Positions 10 through 64,000 of a stretch of 64,000 bases of DNA are shown one piece after another. Both the position numbers and the translations under genes were made by a program. A model generated the notes under the pieces. The model worked only from the letters and a program-made list of their open reading frames with translations, was not told where the DNA came from and searched no databases. The DNA lies in assembly GCA_021292105.1 (NCBI GenBank), contig CM037869.1, positions 42,389,990 through 42,453,989 of the forward strand, read 5' to 3'. Every line of letters starts with the position of its first letter. Positions within the stretch are counted from its first letter, which is position 1. Source of the DNA: Anadara kagoshimensis (lineage: Eukaryota > Mollusca > Bivalvia > Arcoida > Arcidae).

Positions 10-648
10 TTGTCACAATATCGCTTTTGTGTGGACTTTCGGTACTTGAACTCGCAAACCCAAGATTTCCGATATATGATACCAGATCTTCAGGATTTGA
101 CAGAATCTTTCACTCATCGAGAACCCAATTTTATTACTACTATAGATTTAAGCTCCGGATTCTTTCAGATGGCCATTTCACCAGAATCATCTAAGTACAC
201 TGCCTTCAACACCTGCTTTGGTACATATAAATTTCTTCGTATGCCCATGGGTTTGAAAACAGCCCCAAATTCGTTTCAGTTATTAATGGACAGGATATTG
301 CATGGACTTACTTACAATATTGTACTGTGTTATTTAGACGATTGCCTGATCGTGTCACCGACATTTACGGAACATTTATCAGATATTCAGACTGTGTTCA
401 ATAGGTTTCGTGATGCCGGCCTCAAACTTGGACCAAATAAATGTCAGTTCCCACAGGAGAGATGTTTATTTCTCGGACACATGGTTTCGAAAGACGGACT
501 TGCACCTCCTCCAGATCGAGTTGAGGCTATACAAGAATATTGTACACCTACAAATGTTAAGTCTTTGCGTAGATTTTTAGGTATGATAGGATGGTTCCGA
601 AAGTATATACCTCAGTTTTCGAGTGTTGCTGATCCATCTTTTCTCTGA
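10..648 (+). pseudogene. pol: Ty3/gypsy pol, reverse transcriptase part (5'-truncated by window, frameshifted at 3' end)
   Basis: Reverse transcriptase domain of a Ty3/gypsy-type LTR retrotransposon, which copies element RNA into DNA in cytoplasmic particles. Visible RT motifs in order: FCVDFRYLN near the start, TTIDLSSGFFQ, the FLRMPMGLKTAPNSFQ block, the catalytic YLDD at 331-342, and LFLGHMVSKDGL with RRFLGMIGWFRKYIPQF towards the end. The reading frame is already open at the window edge, so the methionine at 10 is not the true start; gag, protease and the 5' LTR lie outside. The frame stops at 646-648 while homology continues at once in the -1 frame. One base has been lost or misread at about 640, separating RT from RNase H. 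Family assignment is firm; whether the break is mutation or assembly error is open. Confidence 0.92.
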
Positions 649-3638
649 AGAAAGGCGTTCAGTTTAGATGGACAGTTGAACACCAGGATGCTTTTCAACA
701 ATTGAAGGAACTTTTAATTAGGTCACCTATATTGGCATACCCTCGATTTGATTTACAATTTCACTTAGCGGTTGACACATCTTCTAGAGGTATTGGGTAC
801 CAACTTCACGATTCACAGGATTGTTCTGGAAAAGTATTACGTGTTATACGATTTGGGTCAAAGAGACTTAGTAAATGGCAACGTTCGTACGGCCCTACGA
901 AGTTAGAACTACTTGGATTAACTACTGCTGTATTAGAATGTTCCGATTACCTTCGCGGCGTACATTTTCAAGTGGAGTGCGATCACCAAGCGCTCAAGCC
1001 ATTATTTCAAAAGCGGTTAAAAGGTGCAATTTTTGACAGATGGCTTGCAATTCTACAAGAATTTAACTTTGATATTGTTTATAAACCTGCTGCCAAAATG
1101 TGTGTTGCAGACGCACTCTCACGTCATCATCATTCAACGCAGGAAGAACCAGAATTTTGTAGTCCCGATGAGACTGATCCAAATTTCCCATATGTACAGG
1201 ACCAGTTAACACAGCATAGCGCTAACCCTCATGGACAACAACTGTTTAATTTGTTACCTCAGGATCAAGTCAATAACGTTGTTATTGAACCAATCCGTGT
1301 AAATAGACATTTTAATGATGACAACGATAACAGCGATCCAGGTTACGATGCGGACACTGATGAAAATGTGTTACCATTAAAACATAAACAAGGGCGTAAG
1401 ACAAGGCAAACATCTTTGAGAAATGTTTTTCATACAAACTGTAACAAAAGTGATGTCGTGTTGACGCAACCAAAATTACCCTATGTTGACAAAGTCGAAC
1501 AATTTCATGGTAGACTAGATGAAACAGTGAACAATTTGCCTCTCGGGCAAGATAACTTCATTGATTGTTCTACAGTGACAGATACAAGCTGTGATAATGT
1601 GTGTGCAAAGTATGACGTGTCTACAGTAAATGATCCCGATAGTGACAATGCCGTTTTTCACAAGTCTACAGCACTAGATACTGATAGCAGTATTGTTCAG
1701 CAAGACGATACAAGTCTTGTTGATGTTTTACCGGATGTTCATTTAGATAGTTCACCAACTCTGTTGTCGGATAAAAACTTCAGTACAGGACAGGCAGGTC
1801 AAACGTCTAATGAAAGTATAAGTACCGAACAGGAAACGTGTCATGAAAGTACAGAACAGGGCAATAATGCCAATGACAATTTTCTTAGAGACGAACAACA
1901 CATACACGATTTGTTAGAGGAAACCTCGTTGTCCCTCAAGGACATTGCAGAGCTTCAATTCTCTGATCCTCGATTTAACCCAATTATATTGTATTTACAA
2001 AATGGTGTTCTCCCAAAGTCGCAGAAAGTTTCACGTCGTTTGTTGTTGGAGATAGGCGATTATTTTATAATTGAAGACGTTCTATTTCATAGTCGTGTTG
2101 CTAAGAGTAAACGGACTACGAATCACCATCATTCTCAATTAGTGATTCCAGAGAGACTAATACTCGGTGTCATGAAATTATTTCATGACTCGCCTATGGG
2201 AGCTCATGGCGGCATACAAGATACGCTTGATAGAGTTAAACAGCATTACTTTTTCCCAAGAATGGCACAAATTATTCAAGACTATATCAGATCGTGTCAT
2301 CAGTGTCAAAGCCGCAAGATTACGCGTCAACAGGTCCAGTCATCAGTGAAATCATTTCCTACTCCATCTGCTCCCTTTGAGGTTTGGGAAATCGATCTTT
2401 ATGGACCCTTGCCAACGTCATACCATGGCAATAACTACATCTTTACAGCACTGGACATGTTTAGTAAATTCCTGTATGCTGTGCCCATTCCCAGTAAAGA
2501 TGCTATTTCTGTCTCCGCAGTCTTAGTCAAGTTATTTACAACATATGGAGTATGTCATACTCTTGTAAGTGATCAAGGTCAAGAGTTCATGGCTCAGGTT
2601 ACAAGGACTATTTGTACGACGCTCGGTATATTACAACAATACACACCAGCATTTGTTCATCATTGTCTAGGTGCATGCGAAAGGACGCATAAAACTTTAG
2701 CAGAAAGAATAACGCCCTATGTGAAATCCAATATTAGAATCTGGGATGATGTGCTGCAATTTGTCTTGTTTGCCATGAACTCCTCTGTGAATAACTCACT
2801 AGGATATTCTCCCTTTGAAGTGATATATGGACATAGACTTCAGTTTCCGTTGACTCCGTTTTCTCGGGACATAAATTTCAACAGCATTCCAAAGGATTGT
2901 CATTCGTACATGGAAAGGCATTTGCGTGATCTTGATATTATCCGCCAAGAGATTAGAACTAATAGTTCACATGCCAAGTTTAATATGGAAACTCGGTCTA
3001 CTCAAGAACCTCATGGTCTAAAGTCAGGAGACTATGTTTATATGTCTAAGGAACCTACAGGCGTTGGCAAGAAACTACAAGATCAGTTTGCGGGACCTTT
3101 AGTTGTTCACAAGATTCACTCTGATCATATGTTAATTTTGAGAAATCCAGAGAAAGACATTATATACCAACAACCAGTTCATATTAGTCGTGTAAAGGCT
3201 GCATACGTACGTGAACCTACTCCGTCACCCTATTTTATACCATCTGTTACTACTAAGATATCACAGGACATAGCATGTGAAGATAAGGGAATACAAACGG
3301 AAATTATTAAACATACCGGTACACAGGATAATGTTCTACCTACAGCTGAGTCAGTTCGTCCTTCAGTATCTAATCAGAGAAATCCTTCGGCTAGGACTAT
3401 TCGAAAACCAGTGCGTTACATGGATACACAGGTTTCTGGAAGTGAATCAAGTTTTTCAGACTCTAAGTACTTTAAGGTAAAGAAAGTATTGGCTCAGAGG
3501 ACTGTGAATGATCAAACACAATACTTAGTGCATTTTAGCGGCGAACCTGCTCAGAATGCTATGTGGTTAGATTTTGACGATTTGAATTCTACAACCAAAC
3601 AGTTAGTTTTGAGTAACCCGCCACCACCAAGTGTATAA
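645..3638 (+). CDS. pol: Ty3/gypsy pol, RNase H + integrase + chromodomain-like C terminus
   Basis: Continuation of the pol polyprotein after the frameshift; homology begins near 645, before the first methionine at 702. RNase H: acidic residues Asp 774, Glu 906, Asp 981 and Asp 1110 (codon starts), the last inside VADALSRH. An acidic, low-conservation linker covers about 1130-1900. Integrase: H2C2 zinc-binding module (His codons near 2180-2210, CHQC at 2295-2306), then the DDE core with Asp 2394, Asp 2571 and Glu 2679; 35 residues separate the last two, the classic D,D35E. A GPL-type integrase C-terminal region follows. The last ~55 residues (from ~3465, YLVHFSG then a W) resemble a chromodomain, which in chromoviruses guides insertion to chromatin; this part is less certain. 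The 978-residue frame is uninterrupted, suggesting a fairly young insertion. Confidence 0.9.
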   Translation: MKKGVQFRWTVEHQDAFQQLKELLIRSPILAYPRFDLQFHLAVDTSSRGIGYQLHDSQDCSGKVLRVIRFGSKRLSKWQRSYGPTKLELLGLTTAVLECSDYLRGVHFQVECDHQALKPLFQKRLKGAIFDRWLAILQEFNFDIVYKPAAKMCVADALSRHHHSTQEEPEFCSPDETDPNFPYVQDQLTQHSANPHGQQLFNLLPQDQVNNVVIEPIRVNRHFNDDNDNSDPGYDADTDENVLPLKHKQGRKTRQTSLRNVFHTNCNKSDVVLTQPKLPYVDKVEQFHGRLDETVNNLPLGQDNFIDCSTVTDTSCDNVCAKYDVSTVNDPDSDNAVFHKSTALDTDSSIVQQDDTSLVDVLPDVHLDSSPTLLSDKNFSTGQAGQTSNESISTEQETCHESTEQGNNANDNFLRDEQHIHDLLEETSLSLKDIAELQFSDPRFNPIILYLQNGVLPKSQKVSRRLLLEIGDYFIIEDVLFHSRVAKSKRTTNHHHSQLVIPERLILGVMKLFHDSPMGAHGGIQDTLDRVKQHYFFPRMAQIIQDYIRSCHQCQSRKITRQQVQSSVKSFPTPSAPFEVWEIDLYGPLPTSYHGNNYIFTALDMFSKFLYAVPIPSKDAISVSAVLVKLFTTYGVCHTLVSDQGQEFMAQVTRTICTTLGILQQYTPAFVHHCLGACERTHKTLAERITPYVKSNIRIWDDVLQFVLFAMNSSVNNSLGYSPFEVIYGHRLQFPLTPFSRDINFNSIPKDCHSYMERHLRDLDIIRQEIRTNSSHAKFNMETRSTQEPHGLKSGDYVYMSKEPTGVGKKLQDQFAGPLVVHKIHSDHMLILRNPEKDIIYQQPVHISRVKAAYVREPTPSPYFIPSVTTKISQDIACEDKGIQTEIIKHTGTQDNVLPTAESVRPSVSNQRNPSARTIRKPVRYMDTQVSGSESSFSDSKYFKVKKVLAQRTVNDQTQYLVHFSGEPAQNAMWLDFDDLNSTTKQLVLSNPPPPSV

Positions 3639-6884: not shown

Positions 6885-7400
6885 TTATATAGTGACCGAA
6901 ACACATATTTTCTATCCGTTTTCCACGTGCATTTTCCAAATGGTACCCAGAACACTTATGTCATTTTCAACATGGGTTTAAATGCATTTTCCGCATAGTT
7001 CCCTCGTAACACATGTTTACCCATGCATTTTTAACATGGTTTTTCTATTCATTTTCACTCGGGGCTCATATTCCAATGTGTTTTCGCATGTATTCCGAAA
7101 AACATAAATTCCATATACAACTGTATTGAAATTATGTTGGTGGGCGTACCTAGTTATTCAGGAGGTACTTTTCCTTTTGGAGCACCTTTCTGGTACAAGT
7201 TCACGTGTGATATTTAATTGGCCAATTTCAAATGTTTTACTTTGCTTTGAGATAGTGGTTTGGACATGGATTCCCAGAATAAGTATTCCCCGTGCATTTT
7301 ACACATGTTGCCCGGAACACATTCCCATGCATTTTCTATATGGGTACACTAATATTTCCCATGCGTTTTCGCGTGTTGCCCGGAAACATATTTTCCATAT
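6885..7400. repeat. Degenerate ~45-50-bp tandem array
   Basis: Repeated phrases CCATGCATTTTC, ACATGTTGCCCGGAACACAT and close variants recur every ~45-50 bp. Open reading frames here have no recognisable domain and are taken as by-products of the repeat. Confidence 0.55.
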
Positions 7401-7654: not shown

Positions 7655-7939
7655 AGTGAAGTATATTTTATTAATATCAAGACGTCGTCAGCTATAGGCA
7701 AAGGTGCAGAAATGTTGCCCGTGCATTGCTGATGACATTATACACCAGGGTTGTTTAGCGTACCACGCCTACCATGACATGGGACCTCGTTTATTTTAAA
7801 TTTATATCCGAAAGAACCGTGACTTCCATTTCGTAATGCCGAGTGCTAGGCGAAAGAACATTAAAATATTGGGTCGGGTTCGAATCCACGATCTCCCACT
7901 TACAGAGCGAACACTCTACCAACTGAGCTACCGCAGTGG
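7655..7939 (-). mobile_element. SINE-A copy 3
   Basis: Minus-strand copy with intact head (CTACCAACTGAGCTACCGC at the right end) and tail domain (AGACGTCGTCAGCTATAGG at the left). It abuts the decayed hammerhead element at 7940. Confidence 0.88.
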
Positions 7940-8030
7940 TTACCAAGTATTTTGATTACACGTTAACTTTACAACACTAGACAGCCGTTTCGGATTTCAA
8001 TTCCTCAGCAGTGGTACTTTTTTTTTTCAA
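7940..8030 (-). ncRNA. Hammerhead-ribozyme element copy C, decayed
   Basis: On the minus strand this matches copies A (47621) and B (62600). The 3' stem I strand TAGTGTT (7973-7979), stem III ACGGCTGT, GAAA (7988-7991), a stem II of GGAAT/AATCC type and the core box are all in order. The core box reads CTGCTGA (8005-8011) instead of CTGATGA, changing the invariant A6, and the 5' stem I strand is mismatched. Self-cleavage is therefore not expected. It supports a dispersed, multicopy family. Confidence 0.7.
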
Positions 8031-8701: not shown

Positions 8702-9625
8702 TACAGCACAGACCAACAAAAAGTGTAGCACTAAGCTAAAGAAATTGTTTCGCAATCGGCAGATCATCTCGACCCCTTTATTAGCTTATTCTCGACAGCT
8801 TTTCTGTAACTGCCATCTGTCTATCTCTTGGCAGCTTTTCTGTAATTGCCATCTGTCTATCTCTTGGTAGCTTTTCTGCAACTGCCATCTGTCTATCTCT
8901 TGGCAGCTTTTCTGCAACTGCCATCTGTCTATCTCTTGGCAGCTTTTCTGCAACTGACATCTGTCTATCTCTTGGCAGCTTTTCTGCAACTGCCATCTGT
9001 CTATCTCTTGGCAGCTTCTCTGCAACTGCCATCTGTCTATCTCTTGGCAGCTTTTCTGCAACTGTCATCTGTCTATCTCTTGGCAGCTTTTCTGCAACCG
9101 CCATCTGTCTATCTCTTGGCAGCTTCTCTGCAACCGCCATCTGTCTATCTCTTGGCAGCTTCTCTCCAACCGCCATCTGTCTATCTCTTGGCAGCTTCTC
9201 TGCAACCGCCATCTGTCTATCTCTTGGCAACTTCTCTGCAACCGCCATCTGTCTATCTCTTGGCAGCTTCTCTGCAACTGCCATCTGTCTATCTCTTGGC
9301 AGCTTTTCTGCAACTGTCATCTGTGTATCTCTTGGCAGATTTTCTGCAACCGCCATCTGTCTATCTCTTGGCAGCTTCTCTGCAACCGCCATCTGTCTAT
9401 CTCTTGGCAGCTTCTCTGCAACTGCCATCTGTCTATCTCTTGGCAGCTTTTCTGCAACTGTCATCTGTCTATCTCTTGGCAGCTTTTCTGCAACTGTCAT
9501 CTGTCTATTTCTTTGCATCTTTTCGGCCACAAGCTATCCATATCTCGGTCACTCGACAACGGAGCTTCGATTCCGCTTCCGTTAGCTCTTAAAATAAGTC
9601 TTACATTTTCGAAAGGCTTTATTGT
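8702..9625. mobile_element. MITE-C copy expanded by an internal 36-bp minisatellite
   Basis: Left terminus TACAGCACAGACC with GCACTAAGCTAAAG, and right inner block CTATCCATATCTCGGTCACTC followed by CTTCCGTTAGCTC and TTTCGAAAGGC, are those of MITE-C. The region between is almost all 36-bp repeat. Confidence 0.8.
8790..9525. repeat. 36-bp minisatellite (~20 units)
   Basis: Unit built from CTGCCATCTGTCTATCTC plus TTGGCAGCTTTTCTGCAA. Its reverse complement equals the MITE-C inner blocks AAAAGCTGCC and GAGAGATAGATAGCAG, so the array grew from the element's own interior. The period is a multiple of three and stop-free on both strands, giving ~250-residue artefactual frames of 12-residue repeats. 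Few substitutions separate units: recent amplification or homogenisation. Confidence 0.95.
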
Positions 9626-10180
9626 TTATTTTTTTGCAAAGAAAAGTAAAAGAAGTAGAATACATTAAAAAATAAAAAAGAAAAAAATGTATTTTAAAGA
9701 ATAAAATTTTTTATTTGAAAGCCGTCTTCCCGATACATTATACAGACGCGTTAATAAATAAATAATACGAATTTGTCGACGGATGCACGGAAGTCACGAA
9801 CGACAAAAGATACAAAGGTTTCCATCCATTAAAATTGTATTGGTAAATAAAGCCAAAATCGATAGCTCTAATAGTTTTTACTAGAAGCGCTAAATTTGAC
9901 TCAAAATGTCAATCTCCAAACAAACCCTCATTGTCTCACAAATTATAGGTTTATCCGTAATATTCAAGAGTCTGTTTGTTTGTCAGTTTACCTTGCTGTA
10001 ATGGAAGACCGCCTCTGATTAAACAGTAATTGTCTAAAATACGGACCGCGGTATTCGGATTTTATTTCTTTAATACACCTTTGATCTTTTTCTTCATGTA
10101 TTGAATTCTGTGTGTTTGTTGGTTTATGATGCTATTGTCTCAAATATAAGTAATGAAATCCATATAATTACTGTTGTTAG
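9626..10180. other. AT-rich spacer, no gene seen
   Basis: Poly-A/T-rich, no conserved frame, splice pair or known repeat family recognised. Confidence 0.5.
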
Positions 10181-21010: not shown

Positions 21011-22313
21011 ATATATCTGTCCGTTAACACAAGCTTGAATTTACCAATACGGTTTCATTTAAAATGATAAAAGACCTGGAATCATTACATTCATGAGAGA
21101 TGATAAAACCAACTGCAAGCAAACAGTTCCTGCAAAGTGTGAGCTTTAGGGAAATTTAAAAATCCATTTTTTAAAGGTATGTGAAATTTTCATGTTCTTA
21201 AATCTTAATTCTGTTTCAGAATTTTTAAAAATATTTATAATTAGCAAATATTACTGATTTTGAAATCTGAATTCTAAAACGACCGTCTTTTAATGTAAAA
21301 TTAACACTTGTGTAATATTTGATTGTAGATTTTGAAAATTTGAAATCAAAAACATACATACTAATCCATGGCCAAATCACAATCTAGAAACAAAGTAAAA
21401 ACTTTGAAACTGACAAGTTAGGTTAAATACGCGAACTTCCTCCAGGGAACTGCGGCCGGGTGCCCAGGAAGGATAGGCACCCCTGTTTAGCTAGCCACAC
21501 CCGCCGCGTGTGTAATCAAAATTGAGTGAAATCCACTTTATAAGGTATGTTCATTTTTAGAATTTTGAATATTTTTTGCAAATACGTGTATATGTATTAC
21601 TTATTTTCAACTATGAATTTTAGATTTGAAAAATTAAATTTTGAAAGTAATGTGCAATTTGAACATGTTTTTAATCTATTACAAAATTTTGAATATTTTT
21701 AAGCAAAAATATTTTACGTATTTTTAACATTGACTTTTAAATATGTTTTTATTTATAATAATTGTTTTTGCAAACCTGAATTCCAGACACTCAAAATACC
21801 AATGTCTCCTTTTTAAAATTTGAAAACTTTTTTTCAAGTTAAATGTTTGTGGCAAGTTGAATTTAAATACTTATATATAATTGTTTTACGCTTATTTAAA
21901 TTTTAGATAATTAATATACCCATGCCTCATTTTTAATTTTTTTTTTGATGATCAATTTGGATTTAAGAAATTTGGTTTTACAAATCTGACTTTCGGATGG
22001 TCTGTTTTTATGCTGTTTTTATATCATTTGCCATGGAAGATATTGCCGACAATTAAGGCACGCAAATAATACAATTTTATGGAAGAATGACAATACACGA
22101 AAACAGATACAAGTATATCGAACACTGGTTGTAAATCTGATATTTAAATTTTTAATTGCTTTTGAAAATTGAATTTTAAATGCTTCAGATTGATTTTTTC
22201 ATTTTGTCATTGTATTCTTGCCTTTCATGCGAAAAATTCGTCAAACACGTACTTTTCTTATTTGATCTCGACTGTCATTCGGCAAACCTCGACAAAACTA
22301 GTAATTCTCTTTC
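21011..22313. other. AT-rich spacer; element G copy inside
   Basis: Apart from element G at 21349-21525 nothing recognisable. TTTTGAAAATTTGAATT-like low-complexity phrases recur. Confidence 0.5.
21349..21525 (-). repeat. Element G copy 3
   Basis: AACATACATACTAATCCATG to CCACACCCGCCGCGTGTGTA. Confidence 0.75.
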
Positions 22314-35924: not shown

Positions 35925-37332
35925 ATAAGTTTAGTACCGACTTAGAGCTAACGAGAGGCTGAGATAAGCCGCCAAGTACCGACTTAGAGCTAATAAGAGG
36001 ATGGAATGAGTCGCCGAGTACCGACTTAGAGCTAACAAGGGGCTGAGATCAGCCGCCGAATACCAAATTAGAGCTAACAAGGGGCTGAGATCAGCCGCCG
36101 AATACCGAATTAGAGCTAACAAGGGGCGGAGATCAGCCTACGAATACCGACTTAGAGGTGACGAAGTACTAAGATCAGCCGCCGAGTACCGACTTAGAGC
36201 TAACGAGAGGCTGATATCAGCCGCCGAGTATCGATTTAGAGCTAACGAGAGGTTGATATCAGCCGCCGAGTACCGACTTAGAGCTAACGAGAGGATTACT
36301 ATTAGATCAGCCGCCGAGTACCGAGTAACTTAAGCTAACGAGAGGTTGATTAGCCGCGAGTACCGACTTAGAGAACGAGAGGCTGATATCAGCCGCCGAG
36401 TACCGACTTAGAGCTAACGAGAGGTTGATATCAGCCACCGAGTATCGACTTAGAGCGAACGAGAGGCTGAGATCAGCCGCCGAGTACCGACTTAGAGCTA
36501 ACGAGAGGCTGAGATCAGCCGCCGAGTACCGACTTAGAGCTAACGAGAGGTTGATATCAGCCACCGAGTATCGATTTAGAGCTAACGAGAGGATGATATC
36601 AACCGCCGAGTACCGACTTTGAGCTAACGAGGGGCTGAGATCAGCCACCGAGTATCGATTTAGAGCTAACGAGAGGCTTATATCAGCCGCCGAGTACCGA
36701 CTTTGAGCTAACGAGGGGCTGAGATCAGCCACCGAGTATCGATTTAGAGCTAACGAGAGGCTGAGATCAGCCACCGAGTATCGATTTAGAACTAACGAGA
36801 GGATGATATCAGCCGCCGAGTACCGACTTTGAGCTAACGAGGGGCTGAGATCAGCCACCGAGTATCGATTTAGAGCTAACGAGGGGCTAAGATCAGCCAC
36901 CGAGTATCTATTTAGAGCTAACGAGGGGCTGAGATCAGCCACCGAGTATCGATTTAGAGCTAACGAGAGGCTGAGATCAGCCGCCGTGTACCGACTTAGA
37001 GCTAGCGAAAGACTGAGATCAGCCACCGAGTATCGATTTAGAGCTAACGAGAGGCTTATATCAGCCGCCGAGTACCGACTTTGAGCTAACGAGGGGCTGA
37101 GATCAGCCACCGAGTATCGATTTAGAGCTAACGAGAGGCTTATATCAGCCGCCGAGTACCGACTTTGAGCTAACGAGGGGCTGAGATCAGCCGCCGAGTA
37201 CCGATTTAGTGCTAACGAGTGGCTTAGATCAGCCGCCGTGTACCGACTTAGAGCTAGCGAGAGACTGAGATCAGCCACCGATTTATTACTCATTCGTTAC
37301 TTTACTGTTAACTTTTCGACTGGTCTGTACTG
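35925..37332. mobile_element. MITE-C right end with 42-bp minisatellite
   Basis: A recognisable right terminus ends the array (ACTTTTCGACTGGTCTGTAC at ~37311-37330). The array unit contains GAGCTAACGAGAGGCTGA and the GAGTACCGA motif, corresponding to the mirrored TCGGTAC..TTCGTTAGCTC portion of MITE-C. Confidence 0.75.
35935..37280. repeat. 42-bp minisatellite (~32 units)
   Basis: Unit: TACCGACTTAGAGCTAACG, AGAGGCTGAGATCAGCC, GCCGAG. Two unit types alternate (GCCGAGTACCGACTT and ACCGAGTATCGATTT), giving an 84-bp higher-order pattern from ~36500 to 37200. The period is a multiple of three, so long repeat-peptide frames arise (328 residues on the minus strand). Confidence 0.93.
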
Positions 37333-47456: not shown

Positions 47457-47620
47457 ACAGGCAAACAACATTGACCTGTCCGGTTGACCTTTAATTTAAC
47501 CAGTGCATTTATGTATAGGTGACACGGGTGTTTAAATTATCTACATCATAGAAAAGTGTATTGTTCAAGCAATAATCGCACAACCAAATACGCCCATCTA
47601 CTACCCATGTATTGGATGTA

Positions 47621-47790
47621 CTCCCTCATGAAAAGTATTTCCTTAGCTAATTTTGGTAAAATATATTTTGGTCCTTTGGGTTTCTTTTCAACATCTTCTG
47701 GTTTCATAATTTTGGTCCAAGCACTACTGATGAGGAATTGTATCCTGAAACGCTCGTCTAGTGCTGTAAAATTAACACTGGTATAATATG
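47621..47790 (+). mobile_element. Hammerhead-ribozyme element (retrozyme-like), copy A
   Basis: ~165-170 bp, homologous along its length to 62600-62775 (both begin CTCCCTCATG and end with CTGGTATAA, shared inner TTGGTAAAATATATTTTGGT). ATGTA occurs directly at both borders (47616-47620 and 47788-47792), a possible 5-bp target duplication in element J. The ribozyme occupies 47720-47765. Confidence 0.8.
47720..47765 (+). ncRNA. Hammerhead ribozyme, copy A
   Basis: Type I layout: stem I AGCACTA (47720-47726) with TAGTGCT (47759-47765), 7 perfect pairs; core CTGATGA (47727-47733); stem II 47734-47746; GAAA (47747-47750); short stem III ACG/CGT; predicted cleavage after C47758. Stem II is weakened relative to copy B (a G.U closing pair and one A/C mismatch), so activity may be reduced. 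Confidence 0.82.
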
Positions 47791-47989
47791 TAATGGGTAA
47801 TCGTTTGTGAATATTTCGAATGAAAGGTCAAGTTGACAGGTCAAACTTGACGCACTATAAAAATGTTGTTCGTTAATATTACTACCATTAAATCTCTCTT
47901 TTTGTGTTTTGTTATGTAAATAAATGGTTATGTATTTAATTGATTAATTTATTTATTTTTATCATTTTATTTTATTTTTTATTTTATTT

Positions 47990-59847: not shown

Positions 59848-60020
59848 ACAAAATTCACATTACCTTATTCAGCCTTATTAGGATTGTTATGTTCGAGCAA
59901 TTGACTTTATGTAGGTTGGTTGGTTTTAGAATTTGTACATACGTTATCTAGGGTTAAAGAAAAAAGTTGTGCTTTTTATAAAGTGTTAAATGTTGCATAT
60001 TATATCCGTTTTACACAAAG

Positions 60021-60317
60021 GTATCGAAGGCAAACTATTGGAACAAGACATGGTACAAAGAATATGCGGACAATTTGACCCAGCAATACCAGCGACTTGG
60101 CGTCAATTTTGCATATTGATAACACCATACATTGAAAGAGAAACCATGAAAAAGTTGAAAAGTTTCAGGACCGTATTCGAGAATTTTAGGGACAACAATT
60201 TGATAACTTTAGGCTATTATGAGCGATTGACCAAAATAGTTGGAGATATTCATGCCCCTTGTGGAAGACTCATGACAAGTATGCAGGAACAAATAGAACA
60301 AAAATTGGACGAAACGG
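60021..60317 (+). CDS. Exon with a death-fold (death-effector-like) module
   Basis: 297 bp, acceptor ...TTTTACACAAAG, donor GTATGT at 60318, phase 1 in and out. The ~99-residue all-helical peptide (LLEQDMVQRICGQF, TMKKLKSFRTVFENF, NNLITLGYYERLTKIVGDIH) follows the spacing seen in death-effector domains, where an F..F/L helix is followed by a turn, a (G)(N)Y..L helix and a closing helix. A whole domain on one phase-1 exon suits domain shuffling in apoptosis or innate-immune adaptor genes of molluscs. Fold assignment is by eye; a death domain or unrelated helical domain is possible. The exon itself is well supported, because joining phase 1 to 62804 and 63933 keeps one frame open. Confidence 0.6.
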
Positions 60318-61061
60318 GTATGTTAAAAATTTTCTTTTTATCTAACTGTCCTGTTACACTATGGTAACTAAGTTTGTAGAGTGTACTCTAAAGGAAAAAA
60401 AATGTCGTGTATGAAAGAACAATAGAATCTACCTCTGCCTTGTAGTGGAGACAATTCCAAAAGGAAATATCAACGTTAGAGATTATATTTTATATTATAA
60501 GCCTCAGCCAAAAAAAGGCTCTAATCAATTGAGATTCATTGGTCATAACAATTTGTGACGTCATTTATCGCGAGTACAAAGTCCAAAGTAACGATAAAAA
60601 GCTTTAAAAAGAAATATACTGGATATGGAAGACTAAGTCTGGAAAAATAAAGAACCTCTTTCCTTAAGTTAAGATTGCTATGTTTCCACTACAAAGCAGG
60701 GGATGTTTATACATATTCCCATCCTAGGGTTGGATCCCTTTTCCCACTTCTGATGTTACAATCATATATTTACAACATGACTGTATCTCTCTTCGATGAA
60801 ACATACAGAAGCAATTGTATTTCAATTCCCGTTGAAAGACAATAGGGGTTATGACCCTTAATGTGTATCAATTTTCCCGCAATATTACGTCATGTCCCGC
60901 ACAGGGGGTCACGTGATCACATGAGATACGCCGATCTCACATGGCTAAAAACTCTATCTCACACGAGCAAATATGGAAAAAATAGCGCCAAGGTAAAAAA
61001 TATTTATTAAAAAAAAAGAATTGTAAATATAAGAAATGCATTTCTGCTCAATGTATTTTAA

Positions 61062-61152
61062 GGGGTAATGACAGGTAGTGTGGCGCATGGCAAATTCAAA
61101 GCCCTTCATCGAATTTGGCAAGCGCCACACTATCTTTCATTACCCCTTGAAA
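61062..61152. repeat. Short foldback (27-bp arms)
   Basis: AAGGGGTAATGACAGGTAGT with GTGGCGC is mirrored by GCGCCACACTATCTTTCATT with ACCCCTT. Confidence 0.88.
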
Positions 61153-61264
61153 TATCATGATTAGAATATCACCTGTGGCCGTTACAGAGGACGCTTACAA
61201 CTAGAAGCGAATGAAACAGACTGAGCAAGAAGAAAAGATATTCTTCCATCTTTCTATGTTTGAG

Positions 61265-61735
61265 ATTAATAGAATCTTACACCAGTACCAGGGTAAGATA
61301 GAGATTTCTTGCACCCCAGATAGAAAAATCCATAAAATGAGAGGTTCAAGATATCTCCATCTTGTACCCCCCTGTGCAAGATAGCCTACACGCCGTTTTT
61401 TCCGCAAAAATTTTAGGTGTATCAAAGGTTGAAAATGGTTTTAAATTGAAAAATTGTACTTTTTGACGCAAGAAATAGAATCAATCACAACTTGTAGTGC
61501 CAGATAAGGAAATCTCAACCCTCGGCAAGCCTCGTTCTGGACCAAATATATTAGAACTCGGGTTGTAATTTCCCTATCTGGCACCACAAGTTGTGATAGA
61601 TTCGATTAATCTCAAACAAGGATGAATATTTTACTGTCCAGAACAAGCTTTAGCGAGTTCTGGACATTGAAAATATTCATCCGAGTTTGAGATATCTCAT
61701 TCTTACTCTGTCACTGGTGTAGGATTCTTTTTCTC
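61265..61735. repeat. Nested inverted repeats
   Basis: Outer arms AGAATCTTACACCAGTACCA and TCACTGGTGTAGGATTCT enclose an inner foldback (61484-61602: ATCACAACTTGTAGTGCCAG with GGAAATCTCAACCC mirrored by GGGTTGTAATTTCCC with CACCACAAGTTGTGAT). This looks like one MITE inserted in another. Confidence 0.75.
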
Positions 61736-62146
61736 ACACATTTTCTGAAACATTATTTGTAAAATCAAATGTTCAGTTTTCATGTCACCATCCATGCCTG
61801 CTGGAAATGACGTAAACAATTATTGTTGACATTCTCACGTAAAATGATTATGACGTCATCAATTAAGCGTGTGTAAGTGATTGTGACGTTGAAAATATTG
61901 TTGGTTGACTTCGGAACTTTTCTCATGTTATTAAGTCCGCAAAACGATAAATCTAGAGCAGGTATACCTACGTGGGAAATTCAGCGTGTAGCCTGTCTCA
62001 ATCCTAGGGTGGGACAAGGAAATCCCACATGGGTAAAAACGTAGGATATCCATGACACAGGTTTTGCCATCGTCTGAGATATCTTCATTAATTTTCATTA
62101 CTAAGCCACAGTCACAGAAAAGCTTTGGCTTTCGTCCAACATAGGA

Positions 62147-62488
62147 CCATTGCGGTAGCTCAGTAAGTAGAGTGCTCGCTCCGTAAGTGGGAGGTAGTGG
62201 ATTTGATCCCCGACCGGGTCTCACTCTAGACTTGAAAGTGGGTAGTGACTGTTCTTTTGCCAAGCACTCGGCATTACGAAATGAAAGTCACTGTTCTTTC
62301 GGATGGTAACTTAAAATAAATGATGCCCGGTGTCAGAGCGGCCTGGCACTCTAAAGAACCCTGTTGTATAATGCCATCAGCGCAACGCAAAATTTCTGCA
62401 ACTTCGCCTATAGCTGGCGACGTCTCGATATAAGTGAAATATTTTGACTGGGACGTTAAACATCGTTACTCAACTCAACTCAATTCGT
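62147..62488 (+). mobile_element. SINE-A copy 17
   Basis: Direct full-length copy, ACCATTGCGGTAGCTCAGTA to CTCAACTCAACTCAATTCG. Confidence 0.92.
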
Positions 62489-62599
62489 CCGACATAGGTT
62501 TTATAATATAAGGACCGGCTGTGACTATTAATACTTTAGATATAATTGTCTAAATTTCCTGCAAGTTAAAATTTGAAATTTATCAAAAACTAAGGTATA

Positions 62600-62775
62600 C
62601 TCCCTCATGCAAAGCATTTCCTTAGCTTAATTTGGTAAAATATATTTTGGTCCTTGGGTAGATTTTCAACATCTTCAAAATAATTTTGGTTTCATAATTT
62701 TGATCCAAGCACTACTGATGAGGAATTGTATTCCGAAACGGCCGTATAGTGCTGTAAAATTAAAACTGGTATAAA
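62600..62775 (+). mobile_element. Hammerhead-ribozyme element (retrozyme-like), copy B
   Basis: ~170 bp, non-coding, homologous to 47621-47790. GGTATA occurs both just before the start (62594-62599) and at the end (62768-62773), as expected if the element derives from a circular monomer opened inside that motif. It lies in an intron in sense orientation. Confidence 0.8.
62708..62753 (+). ncRNA. Hammerhead ribozyme, copy B (core intact)
   Basis: Stem I AGCACTA (62708-62714) with TAGTGCT (62747-62753); core CTGATGA (62715-62721); stem II GGAAT/ATTCC with TGT loop (62722-62734); GAAA (62735-62738); stem III ACG/CGT around GC; UA at the site, predicted cleavage after A62746. All invariant positions agree with the hammerhead consensus. 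The two-nucleotide loop on a 3-bp stem III is the minimal form known from Penelope-like elements and retrozymes, where dimeric RNAs often fold better. Confidence 0.88.
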
Positions 62776-62803
62776 ATGTAATTAGTTTGGTATTAAATTT
62801 CAG

Positions 62804-62845
62804 ACAAAGAGGATATTCGAAAGTGCAAAGAGAACGCACCACAGG
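62804..62845 (+). CDS. Small exon (42 bp) of the death-fold-like gene
   Basis: Acceptor TTAAATTTCAG, donor GTAAGT (62846). Phase 1 on both sides; encodes KEDIRKCKENAPQ between shared codons. The frame continues from 60317 and into 63933. A linker exon with no domain. Confidence 0.6.
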
Positions 62846-63932: not shown

Positions 63933-64000
63933 GAACTCTTTTGAGTAGTAAATCCGCTGCAGATTTAGAAGCTGTTATGGTCAAAAAATTGTCAGGAGAA
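63933..64000 (+). CDS. Exon of the death-fold-like gene, cut by window end
   Basis: Acceptor TTTGTATTGCAG, phase 1. The open frame (TLLSSKSAADLEAVMVKKL) continues past the window. The amphipathic sequence could be the start of a further domain. Confidence 0.58.

Follow-up and report, generated by a model that had tools for sequence, protein, structure and literature searches.

A coral, a mussel and a salamander are published hosts of retrozymes with type I hammerhead ribozymes (PMC7229834). Judged by the published description rather than by sequence alignment, the family that we describe here from the bivalve Anadara kagoshimensis shares with the non-LTR retrozymes of the mussel Mytilus galloprovincialis, for which RNA circles are known, a type I hammerhead, a short stem III, tandem units and perhaps, judging by eye, a low GC content, with repeats of ~350-390 bp and ~5,000 hammerhead copies described there and ~339 bp and 6,269 strict matches found here (PMC7229834). 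Penelope-like elements are likewise described with type I hammerheads in tandem arrangement, but no coding partner was seen beside the copies looked at here (PMC7761336). A repeat-related hammerhead in the intron of a protein-coding gene has been described in the schistosome SmPoMuc genes, where it is found in all genes of the family between exons 9 and 10, whereas the present case is one insertion among thousands (PMC2576457). Similarly, the Cpeb3 ribozyme is self-cleaving, intronic and located upstream of an exon, but it has an HDV-like fold, and its kinetics and mRNA effects have been measured (PMC10919898). Our search for literature on bivalve or clam retrozymes, in which plural word forms were partly missed, turned up no publication on this animal; the kind of element is known, and its occurrence at this locus and in this animal appears to be new. 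The ultraconserved intronic hammerheads of amniotes are conserved single-locus motifs; the present motif shares their intron location, but lies in a repeat copy instead.

Within the window (the whole 64,000-nucleotide stretch of DNA analysed here), the putative host intron extends from 60318 to 62803 (+), begins with GT and ends with AG, and follows a predicted exon at 59990-60317 (+) with a provisional 5' limit. It is succeeded by a 42-nt exon at 62804-62845 (+), with the acceptor CAG at 62801-62803 and the donor GTAAGT from 62846, and then by an exon that starts at 63933 (+), reaches the window end at 64000 and continues to position 241 of the adjoining region L090 (L090 continues the window, and its position n is extended position 64000+n). 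These three exons and a fourth from L090:1884 onward can be joined without a stop, each join in phase 1. This supports the reading of 62804-62845 as a predicted 42-nt exon, in phase 1 on both sides, and bears out the observation of the earlier note that its frame joins its neighbours. At the L090:1884 join three further donor/acceptor pairs are also open, and the pairing of the donor at L090:2082 with an acceptor ending at L090:3396 is, by eye, in phase 1 too; the introns that follow would occupy extended 64242-65883 and 66082-67396. A search for a second gene copy in which to check the 42-nt exon gave one match at E <= 0.001, the host gene itself. The predicted product has a trypsin-like domain, as the frame of the last exon scores 31.9 bits with Trypsin_2 against a cut-off of 27.6. 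The exon at 59990-60317 has weak Pfam matches, all under the cut-off (BAR_3, E 0.011; DED, E 0.017; PAH_ZNF598, E 0.098), and no Pfam match was found for a presumed partner domain in the next exon; a pair of death-effector-like domains in the host gene is a guess.

The sequence reads as a type I hammerhead at 62708-62753 (+). Stem I pairs AGCACUA (62708-62714) with UAGUGCU (62747-62753) in 7/7 pairs, the core CUGAUGA lies at 62715-62721, and stem II pairs GGAAU (62722-62726) with AUUCC (62730-62734) in 5/5 pairs around the loop UGU. The GAA at 62735-62737, which reads GAAA with the next base, is followed by stem III, the palindrome ACGGCCGU at 62738-62745, which can form either two pairs with a tetraloop or three pairs with a 2-nt loop. 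H17 is A62746, and cleavage is predicted after this base, with a 5'-OH then expected at 62747; the distance from the predicted cleavage site to the acceptor's last base (62803) is 57 nt. The motif combines a CUGANGA and GAA core, three stems, an open stem I and a UH cleavage site, as is characteristic of type I. All parts of the intact hammerhead described in the earlier note were located where it had placed them, and the sequence confirms both the intronic position and the spacing to the acceptor.

A descriptor that required at least 5 pairs in stem I and at least 3 each in stems II and III matched this single site in the 64-kb window and gave no match on either strand of a 10.24 Mb Markov-1 random control; a looser core-only pattern gave 9 matches against 5.17 expected, which is not significant. 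The covariance check that had been proposed succeeded in part: RF00163 fits the motif over the full length of the model in a 76-base scan (21.7 bits, E 0.0015), but the score is below the gathering score of 34, a curated database threshold and not a property of the fold, and the motif is absent from the wider scans, with nothing returned for the whole window at the gathering threshold and no hammerhead among the 7 matches that a 901-base scan gave at E<=10. Scans of four other family loci at E<=1 picked up a single hammerhead, with 28.1 bits and one loop base off the family majority, and missed the remainder; scoring low with Rfam is thus characteristic of this retrozyme family. We further note that, with sampled hammerheads at 21.7 and 28.1 bits against a threshold of 34, default Rfam annotation probably misses thousands of copies of the family, an example of which is at L002:1501-2900.

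Free folding gives the window hammerhead a modest advantage over shuffled sequences (z -1.97, with 10/200 shuffles equally good), and its lowest-energy fold retains stems I and II and loses the native core. Over three choices of flank, the pairing probability of stems I and II ranges from 0.33 to 0.95, and it is 0.33-0.46 in 62600-62803, the longest stretch reaching the acceptor. A cofold of two strands has an energy of -34.9 kcal/mol against -12.3 for the single strand; in these models the palindromic stem III favours the two-strand form.

In the genome searched (1.115 Gb, 36 contigs), the strict core pattern has 6,269 matches (3,158 + 3,111), while the same pattern read backwards has none. 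This agrees with the mention of retrozymes in the earlier note as a known source of hammerheads. An array at C1:310542-311927 contains five hammerheads spaced 338-339 bp, which gives a repeat unit of ~339 bp in tandem arrangement, with no space for coding sequence between the units. By eye, the array unit is A/T-rich, and no LTR was seen in the flanks viewed. Cleavage is predicted after unit position 303, 36 nt short of the 3' end that most sampled copies share. A type I hammerhead repeat in the ~150-450-bp range, present in many copies and as tandem units, is what defines animal non-LTR retrozymes, and the family has these features.

The window copy occupies 62541-62785 (+), corresponding to unit positions 98-339 with the last ~4 bases placed by eye, and is a single 5'-truncated piece. 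It is 93.8% identical to the natural unit of the C1 array over 62541-62781 and 97.1% identical to the nearest sampled copies. Relative to the family majority, taken from up to 102 aligned pieces, it differs at 6/245 positions, of which one falls among the 46 ribozyme positions and five among the 199 flanking ones (Fisher p = 1.0); measured against repeat copies and not orthologues, the ribozyme in the window is without excess conservation. Within the ribozyme it departs from the majority at the cleavage site alone, with an A in place of C. In the otherwise identical pattern, C is found at 6,979 sites genome-wide and A at 88. An A is permitted at a hammerhead cleavage site by the NUH rule. Of 127 pieces covering the whole ribozyme, 56 are fully intact under the criteria used. 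Two-sided changes are rare, six over the 14 stem pairs in these 127 copies, and speak neither for nor against stem covariation; as the core pattern had led to most of the loci, intact cores are over-represented in this sample.

The ends of the copies were examined in 45 copies kept from 64 C1 loci, after copies cut by a region edge or without a piece of at least 88% had been dropped. In this sample, which was drawn by the hammerhead pattern and is biased to copies retaining the 3' part, the 3' end reaches unit position 334 or beyond in 37 copies and falls short of it in the other 8. Most (35/45) are single pieces with 5' starts scattered from unit position 1 to 282, and the other 10 are made of more than one piece. 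Among 20 tail matches without a strict hammerhead, five retain just ~24-26 nt of the element. The common 3' end and the scattered 5' ends look like the outcome of reverse transcription with a single fixed start on the retrozyme RNA and frequent early stops. Starts at the cleavage site, considered as a sign of processed RNA, give no basis for a claim, as a mixed set had a few near the site and none of the 45 copies of the cleaner set starts in unit positions 300-308.

Target-site duplications were sought by comparing the best local match between 5' and 3' flanks with 20 shuffles for each of 54 rows, and are mostly not evident across them. Clear repeats, far above the shuffles, are present in three rows (L010, L032 and L075); those of L010 and L032 sit at the junctions but in repetitive DNA, and that of L075 lies away from the junctions. 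Flank matches at L025, L043, L047 and L069 barely exceed the 20 shuffles, and the window copy, with a flank match of 6.5, falls below its shuffle mean of 7.2. The unit length of ~339 bp and the predominance of single 5'-truncated pieces among the sampled copies set the family apart from the retrozymes described for M. galloprovincialis, and the mostly inapparent target-site duplications may be a further difference.

Additional copies of the family are found in the window and beyond it. A second copy at 47619-47793 (+), 87.6% identical to the array unit, is altered in stem II and in the loop of stem III; a third, decayed fragment lies at 7968-8019 (-; 86.5% over 52 bp), and 21268-21318 (+) is a weakly matching fragment (76.9% over 52 columns, E 1.5e-4). 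In the next host intron, a sense copy at extended 65127-65367 (L090:1127-1367) carries a hammerhead of the family-majority type, with C at the cleavage site, at extended 65294-65339, ~550 nt before its acceptor. By its sequence, this hammerhead is a better candidate ribozyme than that at 62708-62753. The second next intron contains a decayed sense fragment at extended 66973-67045, and beyond the last exon there are a sense copy at extended 69314-69467, preceded by small fragments, and an antisense copy at extended 78217-78374. With one sense copy in each of three introns, the number is too small for an orientation bias to be claimed.

These comparisons suggest, with a probability of roughly 0.85, that the hammerhead at 62708-62753 is part of a 5'-truncated animal non-LTR retrozyme that sits in sense orientation in the host intron as a passenger. 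As the genome contains thousands of copies of this mobile element, a chance insertion is most likely, rather than a switch dedicated to splicing; in such a case the repeat family is the first thing to consult when interpreting a striking intronic ribozyme. For animal retrozymes the literature documents cutting and circles and proposes that another element carries out the reverse transcription (PMC7229834, PMC7761336), with the helper left open and LINEs or Penelope-like elements as candidates (PMC7229834). By this route, transcripts of the arrays would be cut into monomers by their own hammerheads, the monomers would be circularised, and the reverse transcriptase of another element would copy them from a set point 36 nt beyond the cleavage site, early stops giving rise to 5'-truncated copies such as that in the window. 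Against the passenger reading, target-site duplications, which when present in animal retrozymes are described as >4 bp (PMC7229834), are not clear at the window copy or in most of the 54 rows.

The retrozyme ends only ~18-22 nt before the last base of the acceptor, which probably places the branch point within the retrozyme tail, 3' of the cut; no clear branch-site motif was seen by eye. The single ribozyme of the window, with its short stem III and the A at its cleavage site, may be slow or inactive relative to splicing; alternatively, the intron may be spliced even when cut, in which case the branch point and the exon would remain together and the upstream exon would have to be joined while held near the polymerase. 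Invertebrate retrozyme hammerheads are described as mostly efficient as monomers (PMC7229834, PMC7761336), and self-cleavage of the mussel monomer is reported at a kobs of ~0.1 per min (PMC7229834). By analogy with these self-cleaving monomers the window copy may well cut rather than be silent, and at a mussel-like rate, equivalent to a half-life of about 7 min, splicing could in many cases precede the cut. The locus is in this sense a natural test of how far a transcript tolerates a self-cleaving sequence near an acceptor.

The nearest competing explanations concern the origin and the use of the insertion. The copy could derive from the pseudo-LTR of a Penelope-like element, as these elements are described with tandem minimal type I hammerheads (PMC7761336) and such an origin could also yield a fixed 3' end and 5' truncation, but five tandem 339-bp units leave no coding space between them and we consider this origin unlikely. 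About as doubtful is the proposal that the inserted ribozyme has been co-opted to cut the intron during transcription and tune host splicing, as proposed for Cpeb3. The intact core and stems, the closeness of the cleavage site to the acceptor and the sense copies in the same and the next two introns, one of them also intact, would fit such a role, as would the reported inverse correlation of splicing efficiency with intronic ribozyme cutting (PMC10919898, citing Fong et al. 2009), a correlation by which a fast intronic ribozyme would also carry a cost. Yet the ribozyme is no better conserved than its flanks (1/46 vs 5/199), its cleavage-site base is the minority one, thousands of equal copies exist, and three copies in one gene are insufficient for an orientation bias. 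A dedicated, domesticated intronic ribozyme was rejected on the same comparison with repeat copies (p = 1.0). The splicing modulation raised in the earlier note accordingly finds no support in the 6,269 matches, the conservation, the cleavage-site base or the other sense copies, and its alternative, a tolerated ribozyme, fits better than a dedicated splicing role.

More improbable again is an extended form of co-option in which the two intact of the three sense intronic hammerheads would cut the nascent pre-mRNA and set the level of full-length message; if true, a mobile element would have equipped the three introns with a dial that works by self-cutting. Ancient conservation, as in the intronic hammerheads of amniotes, agrees with the intronic position of the motif and is effectively refuted by its place inside a dispersed repeat with copies up to 97.1% identical. 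Finally, a chance match to the descriptor, to which the score below the Rfam cut-off might have pointed, is refuted by the empty 10.24 Mb control and the thousands of homologous copies.

Besides the retrozyme copy, the host intron and the rest of the window contain other repeats. A tRNA-like SINE at 62146-62483 lies just upstream of the retrozyme copy and is flanked, by eye, by 15-nt repeats with one mismatch (62131-62145 and 62484-62498); ARAGORN called no tRNA over the window. At 7850-8019 (-) the head of a comparable tRNA-like SINE comes shortly after the decayed hammerhead fragment. An open frame of 1001 aa at 633-3638 (+) resembles the RNase H-integrase region of LTR retrotransposon polyproteins, and tandem repeats at 8781-9668 and 36010-37296 are open in several frames on both strands. 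In the host intron, imperfect inverted repeats at 61042-61166 (56-nt arms, 82%) and 61474-61607 (48-nt arms, 88%) are perhaps remnants of small DNA transposons.
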